NCBI GenBank assembly: GCA_017792365.1
Contig: CP051229.1
Coordinates: forward strand, 1,302,001-1,366,000
Direction: 5' to 3'
Origin: Hyphomonas sp.
Lineage (GTDB): Bacteria; Pseudomonadota; Alphaproteobacteria; Caulobacterales; Hyphomonadaceae
Length of the DNA: 64,000 bases
Part shown: piece after piece, positions 41,069 through 50,548 of the stretch
How positions within the stretch are numbered: position 1 is the stretch's first letter
How the letters are laid out: each line of letters starts with the position of its first letter
Made by a program: the position numbers and the translations under genes
Notes under the pieces: model-generated
Seen by the model: only the letters and a program-made list of their open reading frames with translations
Told to the model about the DNA's origin: nothing
The model's database searches: none

Positions 41069-42211
41069 ATGCTGCGCATTCTCGCCGTTCTCATCGGCCT
41101 GCTCGCCGTCGGCATCTGGCTGCTGCCCCTGCGCGTCGTCACAGACATGGCCAACCTCGAAGCCGCCGGCATCAGCGCCTCCGCCGTCAACGGCTCGGTC
41201 TGGAACGGCGAGATCGAAAACCTCACCATCCGGGGCGCCGCGCTGGGCGACGTCAACGTCGCGACAGACCCGCTCTCCATAATCACCGGCGCGCCGAAAC
41301 TCTCCTTCGGGTCCAGCGGCCCCGTTGCCCAGGGCGCCGTGACAGTCCGATCCACCGGTCCGCGCTTCTCCGACCTCCGCGGCCAGATCGCCCTCACACA
41401 GCTCGACCCGCAGGCGCCGTCCGGCGCCGTCGCCACGTTCATCGACGCCAGCCTCGACATATCCGCCAACGCCTGCACCGAAGCCTCCGGCCAGGCGCGC
41501 ATCGTCGGCATGGCCGCAGCGGGCATGCCCGACATGTCAGGCCCGATCTCCTGCGAACAGGGTCGCGTCCGCCTCGCGCTCACGCCAGACGGCGACCGGC
41601 CCGGACCGTCAGTCGACCTCCTCATCGACCTCACCAGCCCCGGCCAGCCGCAGCTCTTCGCACGAACCAGCGACCCCAATGTCCAGATGGCGCTCCCGGC
41701 CTACGGCATCGAGGTCATTGCCCCGGCGTTCCTCCGCGCGCTTCTCCTCTGCGGCACAGTCTTCCTCGCCGCCGCCTGCGCCAGCGGCGGACGCGCATCC
41801 GACATCCCCGGCGGCATCGAAATCTCCGGCCGCACCGTCTTCGAGACCCTGCCGCCACAGGATGTCTCCCCCAGCCAGTGCCCGCTCGTCCTCTTCTCGC
41901 GCGCCGACGAAAGCCGCCGCATCTTCGTCTCGCTCGACAATCCGCCCACGGCGCTCATCCGCATCGACGGCCAGACCCGCCAGTTCGCGCGCACCTCCGT
42001 CGCCGGCGCCGCCAGCCTCCGCCACCACGAAGAAGAGATCTACAAGGCCCCGGACGGCGCACAGCTCACCGCCAGCGTCCGGTTCTCACCCCTGTCCGAC
42101 ACGGACGCGGGCGCAGCCATCCGCGCCGCCAGCCTCGCCTACACCAGCCCGGAAGGCGAAACCGCCATCATCCCGGCGGTCGGCCTCGTCTCCTGCTCCG
42201 AAGGCGGCTGA
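41069..42211 (+). CDS. gspN: GspN fused in frame to a lipoprotein-like domain
   Basis: 380 residues; GTG 41063, overlapping the gspM stop, is an alternative start. Residues 1-215 match GspN: an N-terminal TM (LAVLIGLLAVGIWLLPLRVV) and beta-rich repeats with SAVNGSVWNGEIENLTIRG. Residues 220-380 begin FLRALLLCGTVFLAAACASG, a lipoprotein signal with lipobox, then a beta-rich domain of unknown role. A lipobox in mid-protein makes no sense for export, so two genes were probably joined by an indel near 41715. Last gene of the operon. Confidence 0.75.
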   Translation: MLRILAVLIGLLAVGIWLLPLRVVTDMANLEAAGISASAVNGSVWNGEIENLTIRGAALGDVNVATDPLSIITGAPKLSFGSSGPVAQGAVTVRSTGPRFSDLRGQIALTQLDPQAPSGAVATFIDASLDISANACTEASGQARIVGMAAAGMPDMSGPISCEQGRVRLALTPDGDRPGPSVDLLIDLTSPGQPQLFARTSDPNVQMALPAYGIEVIAPAFLRALLLCGTVFLAAACASGGRASDIPGGIEISGRTVFETLPPQDVSPSQCPLVLFSRADESRRIFVSLDNPPTALIRIDGQTRQFARTSVAGAASLRHHEEEIYKAPDGAQLTASVRFSPLSDTDAGAAIRAASLAYTSPEGETAIIPAVGLVSCSEGG

Positions 42212-42530
42212 ACGCTAGCGACCCGATCGCAGGCGATTCTATCCAACACCCTCGCTGAGACGGCAAAATCCCTGTTCGCGCGCCAAATGAATTTTGCCCG
42301 GCGCCCCTCTCAACCCGGGACCAGAACGCCAAACTGTTCCGTACCCAAACGCCTTAATCGTCCGTCCACGGAGCACACTTCGCGTACGCAATACTTGAAA
42401 AACCGACGATCGGCGGGCCTCGCGAACAAAGCACTGGTCAAATTGTGCATCGCAATATGCTAATGCATAGCTAGGCTTTGGTCCACGAATACCCAGGACA
42501 AATACTGAAACGAATACTTCTCGTGACAAA

Positions 42531-42570
42531 CTGTCATGCAACTGTCATAAAACTGATATGAAACTGTCAT
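42531..42570 (+). promoter_or_regulatory. Pho box, four half-sites, overlapping the TonB-like start codon
   Basis: CTGTCAT at 42531, 42542 and 42564, and CTGATAT at 42553, stand at exact 11-base intervals with A-rich 4-base spacers (GCAA, AAAA, GAAA). This is the PhoB-box consensus. The last half-site begins six bases after the annotated ATG (42558). The stretch 42212-42530 holds no gene that I can support. Confidence 0.8.
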
Positions 42571-42959
42571 ACGCACTCCTTGGCCTAGCAGTGGCGAGCG
42601 TGACGCCGACCGCTGCGGCTTATCAGACCGACGTCGCTGCAATCACCGGCAAGAGCGTGCCATTCGCCGTCGAAATCGACGCCAGCCACCAGCCCGCATC
42701 GCTCACCGAAGTCGCCTATCCGCAGGCGGCGGGCGTTCGCCAGATCAACGGCGATTGCGATGTCCGCTTCGACGTCGCCGAGACCGGCGCCACGCAGGAT
42801 GTCCAGGTCACGCGCTGCTCATCCGAGCTCTTCCGCGCCGAAGCCCAGCGCATCGCCGAAGGCATGCGCTACGACAAGGCCGCCGCAAATGTCAGCGCCC
42901 GCATCAGCTGGACGATCGCGCCAGCCGAAGCGGTCGTCGCGACAGCCAGCCTGCAATAG
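42558..42959 (+). CDS. Small TonB C-terminal-like periplasmic protein
   Basis: 133 residues with a signal peptide ending TAAA/Y (about residue 21). The rest resembles a TonB C-terminal domain: GDCDVRFDVAETGATQDVQV, then CSSELFRAEAQRIAEGMRYD and a final strand SARISWTI. It lacks the N-terminal TM anchor and Pro-rich spacer of a full TonB, so it may be a soluble TonB-like partner. The Pho box over its start points to phosphate control. It follows the gsp operon in the same direction. Confidence 0.7.
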   Translation: MKLSYALLGLAVASVTPTAAAYQTDVAAITGKSVPFAVEIDASHQPASLTEVAYPQAAGVRQINGDCDVRFDVAETGATQDVQVTRCSSELFRAEAQRIAEGMRYDKAAANVSARISWTIAPAEAVVATASLQ

Positions 42960-43050: not shown

Positions 43051-43830
43051 TCAGGCCCGCGGCAGGCTCTCCCACGGCAACAGCCATGTCCGCCCATCCG
43101 CCTCGCCGCGCAGCGCCCGCACCCGATAGACTTCGGCCAGCCGCTCATCGGACAGCACGTCGACCGGCGCGCCGTCGCAAATCGCCCGCCCCATATTCAT
43201 CAGCACCAGCCGGTCCATGAACCGCGCCGCAAGCGACAGGTCATGCAGAACCACCAGCACCCCCCGCCCCGCGTCCGCCAGCCCGCGCAGGATTTCCATC
43301 ACCTGCAGCTGGTGCAGCGGGTCCAGCGCGGTCGTCGGCTCATCCGCCATCATCACCGGCGCCTCGACAGCCAGCGCCCGCGCCAGCAACACCCGCGTCC
43401 GCTCGCCCCCTGACAGGACCTGAACCGGACGATCGACCAGATACGTCGCCTCGACCTGCTCCAGGGCCCGATCGACCGCCGCATGATCCTTCGCAGTCGC
43501 GCCGCCAAGGCCCGACTGGTGCGGATATCGGCCCAGCATCACCACATCGCGCGCGCGCAGCCGCCACTCCACGCGCCGGTCCTGCGGCAGGAAGCTCACA
43601 GCCCGCGCCCGCTCCGGCCCGGTCATCGAGAACAGGTCGCGCCCGTCCAGCAGCACCTCGCCGCCGGCCCGCTCCCGCAGGCCCAGCATGGCGCGCATCA
43701 GCGTCGACTTCCCCGCCCCGTTCGGCCCGATCAGCCCGACCAGCTCGCCCGGCGCAACCTGCAACGAGACGTCGTCGACGATCTTCCACCCGCCAAGTTC
43801 GACGGTGATATGCCGCGACTCGAGTTTCAC
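43051..43830 (-). CDS. ABC transporter ATPase (BtuD/HmuV type)
   Basis: 259 residues from GTG 43830, with GGAGG upstream and overlapping the permease stop (GTGA). Walker A is GPNGAGKST, the signature is VLSGGERTR, Walker B is VMMADEPTTALD, and the switch His is in VLHDLS. It energises import of iron-siderophore, heme or cobalamin with the neighbouring FecCD permease. Confidence 0.9.
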   Translation of the reverse strand: MKLESRHITVELGGWKIVDDVSLQVAPGELVGLIGPNGAGKSTLMRAMLGLRERAGGEVLLDGRDLFSMTGPERARAVSFLPQDRRVEWRLRARDVVMLGRYPHQSGLGGATAKDHAAVDRALEQVEATYLVDRPVQVLSGGERTRVLLARALAVEAPVMMADEPTTALDPLHQLQVMEILRGLADAGRGVLVVLHDLSLAARFMDRLVLMNMGRAICDGAPVDVLSDERLAEVYRVRALRGEADGRTWLLPWESLPRA

Positions 43831-44828
43831 GCCTCCAGCTCCGCCCGCGCCCGCAACACCAGCGAGAGGAAGAACGGCGCACCGATCAGCGCCGTCACCA
43901 CGCCCAGCCGCAGCTCGGCCCCCACCATCACCAGCCGCACGAAGATGTCTGCCGCAACCAGCAGCAGCGCGCCCCCCAACCCGCTCGCAAGCAACAACCG
44001 GCTGGGCCTGTGCCCCACATACGGCCGCAGGATGTGCGGCACGACCAGCCCGACAAACCCGATCACCCCCGCCACAGCCGTCGCCGCGCCCACCCCGACC
44101 GCCGCGCCAAGAACGATCATCCACCGCACACGCGCGAGGTTCACCCCAAGGCTCGCCGCCGAATCCTCGCCCAGCGTCAGCGCATCCAGCGACCGCGCCG
44201 ACCACGCAATCAGCGCCCATCCAAACACCATGAACGGCGCCGCCAGCGCGACATGATCCATCGACCGGTCCGTCACCGACCCCAGAAGCCAGAAGATGAT
44301 CTCCACCGCCGCAAACGGATTGGGCGACAGGTTCAGCGCCAGCGATGTCAGCGCGCCCGCCAGCGACGAGATCGCGACACCCGCCAGCACCAGTGTCAGC
44401 ACGCCGCCGCGCCCCGCCAGCCATTGCAGCAACACAACGCAGACCAGCCCGCCCGCAATCGCCATCACCGGCAGCGCCAGTGCAAACATCGCCGACAGCC
44501 CGGTATAAATCGCCAGCACAGCCCCCAGCGCCGAAGTCGAGGACACCCCCACCACGCCGGGATCAGCCAGGGGATTGCGCAGAAAGCCCTGCAGCGCCGC
44601 CCCCGTCAGGCCCAGCGTGAAGCCGATCATCGCCGCCAGGATCGTCCGCGGCAGCCGGATCTCCCTCACGATCATCCACGCCACATCGCCATCGCCGCGC
44701 GCAAACAGGTTGAACAGCTCGAATGTGCCAGCCGCCGCGGGGCCAACCATCATCGAACCCGCCAGCGCCGCGCAAAGCGCAACAACCAGTCCGCTCACCA
44801 GCAGGGGATAGGAAACCGTCCGCGCCAT
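43827..44828 (-). CDS. FecCD-family ABC permease
   Basis: 333 residues from ATG 44828, one base after the stop of the binding-protein gene. About ten TM helices are present, with the family motifs RLPRTILAAMIGFTLGLTGA, ALQGFLRNPLADPGVVGVSS and GVIGFVGLVVPHILRPYVGH. It forms the membrane channel of the importer. Confidence 0.92.
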   Translation of the reverse strand: MARTVSYPLLVSGLVVALCAALAGSMMVGPAAAGTFELFNLFARGDGDVAWMIVREIRLPRTILAAMIGFTLGLTGAALQGFLRNPLADPGVVGVSSTSALGAVLAIYTGLSAMFALALPVMAIAGGLVCVVLLQWLAGRGGVLTLVLAGVAISSLAGALTSLALNLSPNPFAAVEIIFWLLGSVTDRSMDHVALAAPFMVFGWALIAWSARSLDALTLGEDSAASLGVNLARVRWMIVLGAAVGVGAATAVAGVIGFVGLVVPHILRPYVGHRPSRLLLASGLGGALLLVAADIFVRLVMVGAELRLGVVTALIGAPFFLSLVLRARAELEA

Positions 44829-44829
44829 C

Positions 44830-45684
44830 TTACTCGCCGCCAGCCCGCTGCGCCGCCAGCAGCCGCGCGCCCTCCAGCGAATAAGGCGTCGCACAGATCG
44901 TGAAGCGCTCGGGCATGTCGATCACATCGCGCGCCGCCGCCATCCGCTGCAGCGCCGGATGCGCAAGCCCGTTTGTCGCCAGCGATGGCGGATCAGACCA
45001 CGGCGTCTCCAGCGCCATCAGGTCGGGGTCAGTCGTCATCAACACTTCCAGCGGCACGTTCTGATGGCCAACCACGCCCAGCGTCTCGGCCAGCGTCCGG
45101 TAGCCGCCCGCGTTCACGATCTCCTCCGACAACGTGCCGGCGCCGGCCAGCCAGTTGTTCACCTCGATATCCGCGAACACCGGCATGTCGTCCTTCTCGC
45201 CTGCCTGCGCCTGCAGCGCCGCCATGTCGGCATCGAACCGCGCGATGATCGCTTCAGCCTTGGCGCGTTCGCCAACCAGATCGCCCATCCGCAAAAGGTT
45301 CGCCCGCATGTCGTCAAAGCTCATCTCCGGCGCAAAGTCCTCAACCTGCACCCCCAGCCGCCGCAACAGACCCACAGCCGGCCGCGCCGCATACGTTCCC
45401 GCCAGCACAAGATCGGGCTCCTGCAGCAACACCTCCTCCGCCAGACCATGATTGACGCTCAGCGCAGCGGCCGTGTCCCGCAATTCCGGCGGCGTCCGCT
45501 CATTCTGCAACGACAGGAAGGAGATCGATGCAATCCGCTCAGGCTCGACCAGCATCATCAGCATCTGGTCAGTGCACAGGTTCAGCGATGCAATCCGCTG
45601 CGGCTTGCCCTCATCGGCCCAGGCCGAGGCAGCCGCCGCCAGAACAGCGCAAAGTCCACCCAAGCTCAATCGGCGCGCCGCCAC
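44830..45684 (-). CDS. Periplasmic binding protein (BtuF/HmuT-like)
   Basis: 284 residues from GTG 45684, with AGGAG upstream. The signal peptide runs through SLGGLCAVLAAAASAWA. Class III binding-protein pattern: RIASLNLCTDQMLMMLVEPE, then EPDLVLAGTYA, the long helix and NVPLEVLMTTDPDLMALETP. First gene of the importer operon. The ligand is a cobalamin-, heme- or siderophore-type molecule. No cobalamin riboswitch was seen upstream, which argues mildly against vitamin B12. The 364 bases upstream hold no gene. Confidence 0.82.
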   Translation of the reverse strand: MAARRLSLGGLCAVLAAAASAWADEGKPQRIASLNLCTDQMLMMLVEPERIASISFLSLQNERTPPELRDTAAALSVNHGLAEEVLLQEPDLVLAGTYAARPAVGLLRRLGVQVEDFAPEMSFDDMRANLLRMGDLVGERAKAEAIIARFDADMAALQAQAGEKDDMPVFADIEVNNWLAGAGTLSEEIVNAGGYRTLAETLGVVGHQNVPLEVLMTTDPDLMALETPWSDPPSLATNGLAHPALQRMAAARDVIDMPERFTICATPYSLEGARLLAAQRAGGE

Positions 45685-46048
45685 GAATCCGCTCCTGCGG
45701 TACCAGCTCCAGCCGGGGGCCGCCCAAACCAACCACATACAAGCCCTTGGCGGGTCGATGCACATCGGTTGACCGCACGCGTCCGCCGGCTGTCGTCGGT
45801 ATCCGCTATGAGCAGGCAGCTCAAGAATTAACTCTGGATCGTCGTCGCGCGTCAGCCGTCCGTGCTGGTCGCATACGTTTCACCGGGCTGACGCGGCTTG
45901 TCAGCAATATTGGCAAACCATAGGCTCAACAGCGGTCGTGCCCGTCCCCCCCAACCCAGGGCACGGCTGGGCGGCGCGCTGGGCGACCAGCGCGCCGTGT
46001 CCATTGACGAAATTAGCCGGGCTATCGGCTGGTGATCGCCTTGGCGCA

Positions 46049-50471: not shown

Positions 50472-50548
50472 TGGCGACCCCGACAGGATTTGAACCTGTG
50501 ACCCTCAGATTAGGAATCTGATGCTCTATCCTGCTGAGCTACGGGGTC
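50472..50548 (-). tRNA. tRNA-Arg (anticodon CCT)
   Basis: On the minus strand an acceptor stem GACCCCG/CGGGGTC, D arm TAGCTCAGCAGGATAGAGC, anticodon loop TTCCTAA with anticodon CCT, T arm GGTTCAAATCC and an encoded CCA end are all present. It reads AGG codons. No other tRNA is adjacent. Confidence 0.95.

Follow-up and report, generated by a model that had tools for sequence, protein, structure and literature searches.

A predicted PhoB box laid over the start codon and putative leaderless promoter of a small TonB C-terminal-domain gene in Hyphomonas sp.

The TonB-domain gene and the array at its start

The window, i.e. the whole stretch of 64,000 nucleotides of Hyphomonas sp. DNA that was analysed, carries a gene for a 133-residue protein whose start is covered by repeated sequence units (Table 1). 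Pfam TonB_C matched residues 51 to 114 of the product (E 1.8e-9), and its signal peptide, judged by eye and without a signal-peptide program, ends in A-A-A, which is of the A-x-A type. The structure model built from alignment A1 (20 sequences) had a mean pLDDT of 78.6, with block means of 81 to 97 over residues 31 to 120 and low values at both ends. Its best PDB matches were TonB C-terminal domains, including those of TonB bound to BtuB and to FhuA, so that sequence profile and fold both assign the protein to this domain class. The membrane anchor and long periplasmic linker of a full-length TonB were not found, the signal peptide being separated from the Pfam match by about 30 residues. Since an apparent cleavable signal peptide takes the place of anchor and linker, the protein is probably soluble in the periplasm.

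Beside the gene, a minus-strand row at 43054-45765 encodes a periplasmic binding protein, a FecCD permease and an ABC ATPase of the cobalamin or siderophore type. The only match at the Rfam gathering score in the window was a tRNA (50475-50548), and no riboswitch was found there. Just upstream of the TonB-domain gene lies a gspN-like gene. A conserved link to type II secretion is not claimed, because in some g5 orthologs the upstream open reading frames seem to be of another kind, PhzF-like as judged by eye.

Table 1. Position of the gene, the predicted PhoB units and the promoter-like elements in the window
Feature	Position	Strand	Remarks
-35-like hexamer, GTGACA	42523..42528	+	-35 to -30 from the A of the ATG; position kept across orthologs
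PhoB unit 1 (predicted), CTGTCAT	42531..42537	+	-27; at least 5/7 in 9 of 15 representatives
PhoB unit 2 (predicted), CTGTCAT	42542..42548	+	-16; overlaps the proposed -10; at least 5/7 in 15 of 15 representatives
Proposed -10, CATAAA	42546..42551	+	-12 to -7; 17-bp spacing from the -35-like hexamer
PhoB unit 3 (predicted), CTGATAT	42553..42559	+	-5; holds the first two bases of the ATG; at least 5/7 in 15 of 15 representatives
Proposed transcription start (leaderless)	42558..42558	+	A of the ATG; inferred from the hexamers and leadered L024 and L158
Gene, 133-aa protein	42558..42959	+	Signal peptide ca. 42558-42620 (by eye); TonB C-terminal domain 42708-42899
PhoB unit 4 (predicted), CTGTCAT	42564..42570	+	+7, within the coding sequence; perfect in the window alone among 15 representatives

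An earlier note on this DNA had described four 7-base units in exact 11-bp steps across the ATG. Their coordinates (42531-42570), their sequences and the start of the open reading frame at 42558 were all confirmed. All four units resemble CTGTCAT, three of them perfectly and unit 3 with two mismatches. Two or more CTGTCAY-like direct repeats of 7 bp in 11-bp steps define a Pho box, and the array is one. It scored 26 of 28 against CTGTCAY, the runner-up anywhere in the window, on both strands, reaching 21, and it was the single perfect match to CTGTCAYN4CTGTCAY in the 3.4-Mb genome. On the grounds of this score gap and of the sole genome match, a chance array was rejected. When up to two mismatches were allowed, the whole genome held 38 sites for CTGTCAYN4CTGTCAY versus 22 for the reversed pattern, so that near-matches alone are mostly noise; 28 of the 38 were examined for position.

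Pho boxes in the relatives and the conserved register of the start codon

A single protein of the genome scored over the curated PhoB cut-off, alongside other OmpR-type regulators. A search for the recognition helix in the latter matched three of eight loci and was not used as evidence. The box of pstB-phoU-phoB in the window genome reads CCGTCACAAGTCTGTCAA, followed by 10 bp and TAGAAG, which is an activator layout, and a more divergent array precedes the porin O/P-PBP-pstC gene row. The pst genes of this genome lie at two separate loci, L070 (G000:C1:2190000-2205000), with phoR-pstB-phoU-phoB, and L148 (G000:C1:1796000-1806000), with porin O/P, a PBP-like (PstS-like) gene, pstC and a second permease gene.

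The perfect two-unit pattern was matched 27 times in 24 of 74 genomes (that of the window and 73 relatives), and the reversed control not once. Six of these matches precede orthologs of the small TonB-domain gene. Nine proteins, the scanned part of those behind the remaining matches, were classified with Pfam as one PstC, one GspC and six TonB-dependent-receptor-like proteins, with one (L090) giving no Pfam match. PstC, GspC and receptor classes are reported in the PhoB regulon of Caulobacter (PMC11208175). The gspC box, a perfect one about 100 bp upstream of the gene (L075, position 1501), is from another family of the order and is in line with the phosphate control of type II secretion described for Caulobacter in the same report (PMC11208175). 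In four g6 genomes (L101-L104, around position 1500), a pair of boxes lies in reverse orientation some 100 bp ahead of a gene for a PHO4-family transporter, as assigned by Pfam on one of the four loci and by eye, from the shared start of the reading frame, on the others; this is possibly another PhoB-repressed pit gene.

Could another regulator use the site, either a second OmpR-family protein or a dimer reading TGACA/TGTCA, with a signal other than phosphate? The OmpR-type regulators that the genome holds beyond its single PhoB would allow this, as would the TGACA found at unit 2 in most g3 orthologs, which makes unit 2 nearly palindromic with unit 3. Against it, the CTGTCAT tandem with its 11-bp period is the PHO unit described for E. 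coli (PMC4415409), and in the relatives the motif precedes PstC, GspC and receptor genes and a phosphate transporter. We therefore regard a regulator other than PhoB as distinctly unlikely.

Orthologs of the gene were collected by searching 398 genomes of the order with a profile. This gave matches in 113 genomes at E 1e-12, among them 19 clear orthologs (E 2.1e-37 or better), while the remaining matches start at 2.3e-15 and sit in longer reading frames. With three more from G062, G036 and G032, 22 orthologs are known, from six genera of one family, which to judge from the named relatives would be Hyphomonadaceae. A profile scan of contigs with alignment A2 returned nine loci, namely a weak match in Mesorhizobium and eight MAG contigs, of which five are labelled Hyphomonadaceae; the same scan with the window protein alone as query found no relative. 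The gene is not universal among the relatives, as six g5 genomes gave no match. In g3, a longer TonB_C match in an open frame of about 210-220 residues is found about 5 kb away from the small gene (for example G002:C4:213170 and 218101, or G018:C1:2080631 and 2085564), a proximity that hints at a connection with the main TonB locus.

Conservation was counted in 15 representatives, obtained from 20 aligned rows by leaving out the similar L006, L009, L016, L017 and L022; L136 and L158 stand outside these counts. Twenty of the 22 orthologs, which span six genera, have the ATG directly after five bases of the -5 unit, so that comparison of the start region in relatives bore out the register of box and ATG seen in the window; the exceptions are L024 and L158. 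At this junction 18 of the 20 read NTGTC-ATG; the other two are the window, with CTGAT-ATG, and L010, with CCGTC-ATG. The unit pattern put forward in the earlier note was thus upheld, with the correction that in the window it is the degenerate unit 3 that takes in the first bases of the ATG. L136 keeps the ATG register and both promoter-like hexamers described below, its -16 unit having decayed to 3/7. Apart from L158, the g3 orthologs either have TGACA at unit 2 or have lost this unit.

The core from -36 to +3 was more alike than the upstream DNA in nine of nine ortholog pairs (core compared without gaps, upstream DNA with gaps), as in L005/L009 with 90 versus 55 percent, and in these pairs its similarity was no lower than that of the coding sequence. 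The pattern TGTCAYN5TGTCATGAAR, which is strict enough to miss the window and several other orthologs, had 17 matches in 105 genomes of the family and none for its control. Twelve of them are the start of the TonB-domain gene. Of the other five, four are the g6 sites ahead of the PHO4-family transporter gene and one precedes a receptor gene; none of these five has a real open reading frame at its ATG. Judged by these comparisons, the box over the ATG is not a local accident. They also bear on the idea that PhoB binds here without effect, as it does at most intragenic sites of E. coli, which are described as largely inert (PMC10294691). The E. coli sites are reported to be non-conserved in the same study, whereas the site of the window is kept in register across six genera and at a gene start, and inert binding therefore appears extremely unlikely.

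The promoter-like module and the leadered orthologs

At -35, the orthologs carry hexamers such as GTGACA, ATGACA, TAGACA and TGGACA. Their mean match to TTGACA in the 15 representatives was 4.07 of 6, compared with 2.93 for the best of 5000 shuffles over 66 offsets, a comparison that ignores kinship, and the only other offset scoring as high was -16, i.e. the box itself. GTGACA could also be an inverted half-site (TGACA) rather than a -35. The -10-like hexamers (CATAAA, CACATT or similar) have an A at -11 in all 15 representatives and an A at -9 in 13 of them; their mean match to TATAAT was 3.33, which offsets -4 and -15 equal or exceed. The pair of hexamers ranked first or joint first in 10 of the 15 representatives and not in the other five, and it is poor or shifted in L005, L007 and L012. 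A strict scan of 42210-42640 for promoters and terminators gave no match.

No Shine-Dalgarno match longer than 4 nt was present in the A1 rows with the ATG at +1 (20 rows); L024 alone has one of 5 (AGGAG). Two proxies of leaderless mRNAs, the lack of a Shine-Dalgarno sequence and a -35-like hexamer at -35, are found in the window and its orthologs with the ATG at +1, the 5' end itself being predicted only. From the -35-like hexamer and the weak -10-like hexamer at -12, transcription is predicted to begin with the A of the ATG. Leaderless mRNAs are reported as common in alphaproteobacteria, with 375 in Caulobacter (PMC4117421) and 171 in S. meliloti (PMC3616915). The overlap of box and codon would likely be explained most simply as the result of leaderless transcription.

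The two orthologs outside the register bear directly on this point. L024 (g2) has GTGACA-N17-CATAAA, box units at -16 and -5, and ATA at +1; its ATG follows after a 14-nt leader with AGGAG, the 14-nt shift having been chosen to align the module. L158 (g3), which was recognised after the leaderless model had been drawn up, fits the same module. It has TGGACA-N17-CACATT, the units GTGTCAC (-16) and CCGTCAT (-5), and ATA at +1, followed by a 25-nt leader with GGAG and then the ATG. Its protein is an ortholog of the g3 form, with 50 percent over 88 residues to L013, in which the ATG is at +1. Since L024 and L158 keep the module of hexamers and box but shift the ATG, the box belongs to the promoter and not to the codon. 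Moreover, with a Shine-Dalgarno sequence and an ATG right behind the box, transcription in these two must start at or before it. These exceptions are the strongest point for the reading of a box tied to the promoter, and L158 strengthens it further.

A transcript starting further upstream would leave the box in a leader without a Shine-Dalgarno sequence, and PhoB would then act as a roadblock. TATAAT in L025 and TATAGT in L022, seen by eye upstream of the box, could be -10 elements of such a start, and the weakness of the proposed leaderless -10 speaks for it as well. No such element is evident in the window. The orthologs with overlap also have no Shine-Dalgarno sequence, while both orthologs with a displaced ATG have one, and no roadblock was reported at three intragenic PhoB sites tested in E. 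coli (PMC10294691). On balance, an upstream start seems unlikely.

Box geometry, proposed regulation and known systems

PhoB is mainly described as an activator. The earlier note had pointed out that an ordinary activated promoter would start transcription near 42590 and skip both the ATG and the signal peptide, and the geometry agrees, as such a start would fall inside the gene. Of 33 S. meliloti genes for which a box was predicted and the start mapped, 16 are reported to have the box 22-25 nt upstream of the start, over the -35 (PMC3616915). The conserved pair of units (-16 and -5) at the TonB-domain gene covers -16 to +2, that is, the proposed -10 and +1, where PhoB, if bound, should keep RNA polymerase out; this differs from the activator layout of pstB-phoU-phoB in the window genome. 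At 10 bp after this pair the mean match to TATAAT was 1.67 of 6, versus 2.3 in ten ordinary Pho promoters of the relatives; the contrast is mild, and no conserved hexamer was found at this distance, where the ordinary Pho promoters have weak -10s too. The standard activator geometry was rejected as the main reading, subject to this mild contrast and to the points in its favour that follow.

Activation by PhoB from a start inside the gene would mean that the annotated start is wrong, or that a shorter protein or another RNA is made. The orientation of the box is that of an activator site for the strand of the gene. The -27/-16 pair also has the ATGAAA region 10 bp behind it, at about +1, which scores 2.87-3.07 of 6, little below the leaderless -10, and the weak -10s of the ordinary Pho promoters (n=10) make such a score less of an objection. 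Nevertheless, the signal peptide and the ATG are conserved, the -27 unit is missing in 6 of the 15 representatives, and the match 10 bp past the conserved pair is the low one given above. In L024 and L158, the activated start would fall behind or at the Shine-Dalgarno sequence and the ATG. Ordinary activation is therefore very unlikely, and a wrong start codon was rejected on the strength of the conserved signal peptide and the two leadered relatives.

The earlier note had left two ways out, that PhoB represses here or that the real start is different, and this interpretation was supported in part; leaderless transcription, the likeliest explanation of the overlap, was not among its proposals. 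The second failed on the same grounds, while the first gained from the conserved units over the promoter-like module. The stronger argument against activation is that an mRNA begun at an activator-type position would be without the ATG and the signal peptide, and in the case of L024 and L158 also without the Shine-Dalgarno sequence of the leader; steric repression is the natural reading. The layout is that of a PhoB-repressed promoter, with the box overlapping the -10 and the start point, only if the proposed promoter, whose start is predicted, is right.

In the model that we propose, the start point of the promoter would be the A of the gene's own ATG, giving a leaderless mRNA. Two conserved PhoB units with 11-bp spacing would lie on the -10 and +1, with more at -27 and, in the window genome, at +7. 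When phosphate is plentiful, RNA polymerase would transcribe the gene, and the small soluble TonB C-terminal-domain protein would be exported. During phosphate starvation, phosphorylated PhoB would line the array and cover the -10 and +1, and the gene would be shut. The box would lie over the start codon only because the same bases serve as operator, as -10 and as the start of both transcription and translation. The arrangement suggests that phosphate starvation switches the TonB-domain gene off, not on. We infer PhoB binding, the 5' end of the transcript, repression and the role of the protein from sequence. A leaderless promoter with PhoB units on its -10 and +1, by which starvation represses a gene for a secreted TonB C-terminal-domain protein, is the reading that we consider fairly probable.

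A wider reading is more tentative. About 18 bp would be read in three ways across the family, as operator, as -10 with transcription start and as start codon, and starvation would shut off a soluble TonB-domain protein that, with phosphate in good supply, would occupy TonB boxes or TonB partners, thereby freeing the transducer for PhoB-induced TonB-dependent receptors; we regard this combination as possible but rather doubtful. As a soluble protein, the product could be a competitor of TonB at the TonB boxes, or it could modulate TonB itself. If so, repression of the gene while PhoB turns on TonB-dependent receptors would make sense. The window genome holds no perfect two-unit Pho box besides the array, and PhoB-controlled receptors there are only putative. 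In the literature on soluble TonB-domain inhibitors and on operators over leaderless starts, nothing directly on point was found among the matches listed.

If the model is true, the fusion of operator, core promoter and start codon would provide a clean and testable case of direct repression by PhoB, and would illustrate one way of controlling a gene whose mRNA has no leader. Relatives have switched naturally between a leadered form, with ATA at +1, and a leaderless one, with ATG at +1, so that comparison among them offers a test. The model also points to a putative phosphate-controlled soluble TonB-domain protein. For annotators, a binding site over an ATG need not imply a wrong start call.

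Several known systems can be compared with the locus. The leaderless mRNAs of Caulobacter and Sinorhizobium have their 5' end at the A of the AUG and no Shine-Dalgarno sequence (PMC4117421, PMC3616915), and the same is proposed here, although their 5' ends were mapped experimentally whereas that of the TonB-domain gene is predicted. PhoB-activated promoters of the pst and phoA type share the tandem 7-bp units, the 11-bp steps and the sense orientation. Their boxes are reported to replace the -35 (PMC3616915), whereas the conserved pair of the TonB-domain gene covers -16 to +2. The closest case of repression is orfA-pit of S. meliloti, which is described as repressed during phosphate starvation and has its box immediately before the putative translation start (PMC3131613). 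Both genes are alphaproteobacterial and have the box at the gene start, but orfA-pit encodes a phosphate transporter, while at the TonB-domain gene the site lies over the ATG itself, the mRNA is seemingly leaderless and repression is proposed. As to the product, it resembles the TonB energy transducer in its TonB_C match by Pfam and in the fold of the C-terminal domain, and differs from it in having an apparent cleavable signal peptide instead of an anchor and a long linker.
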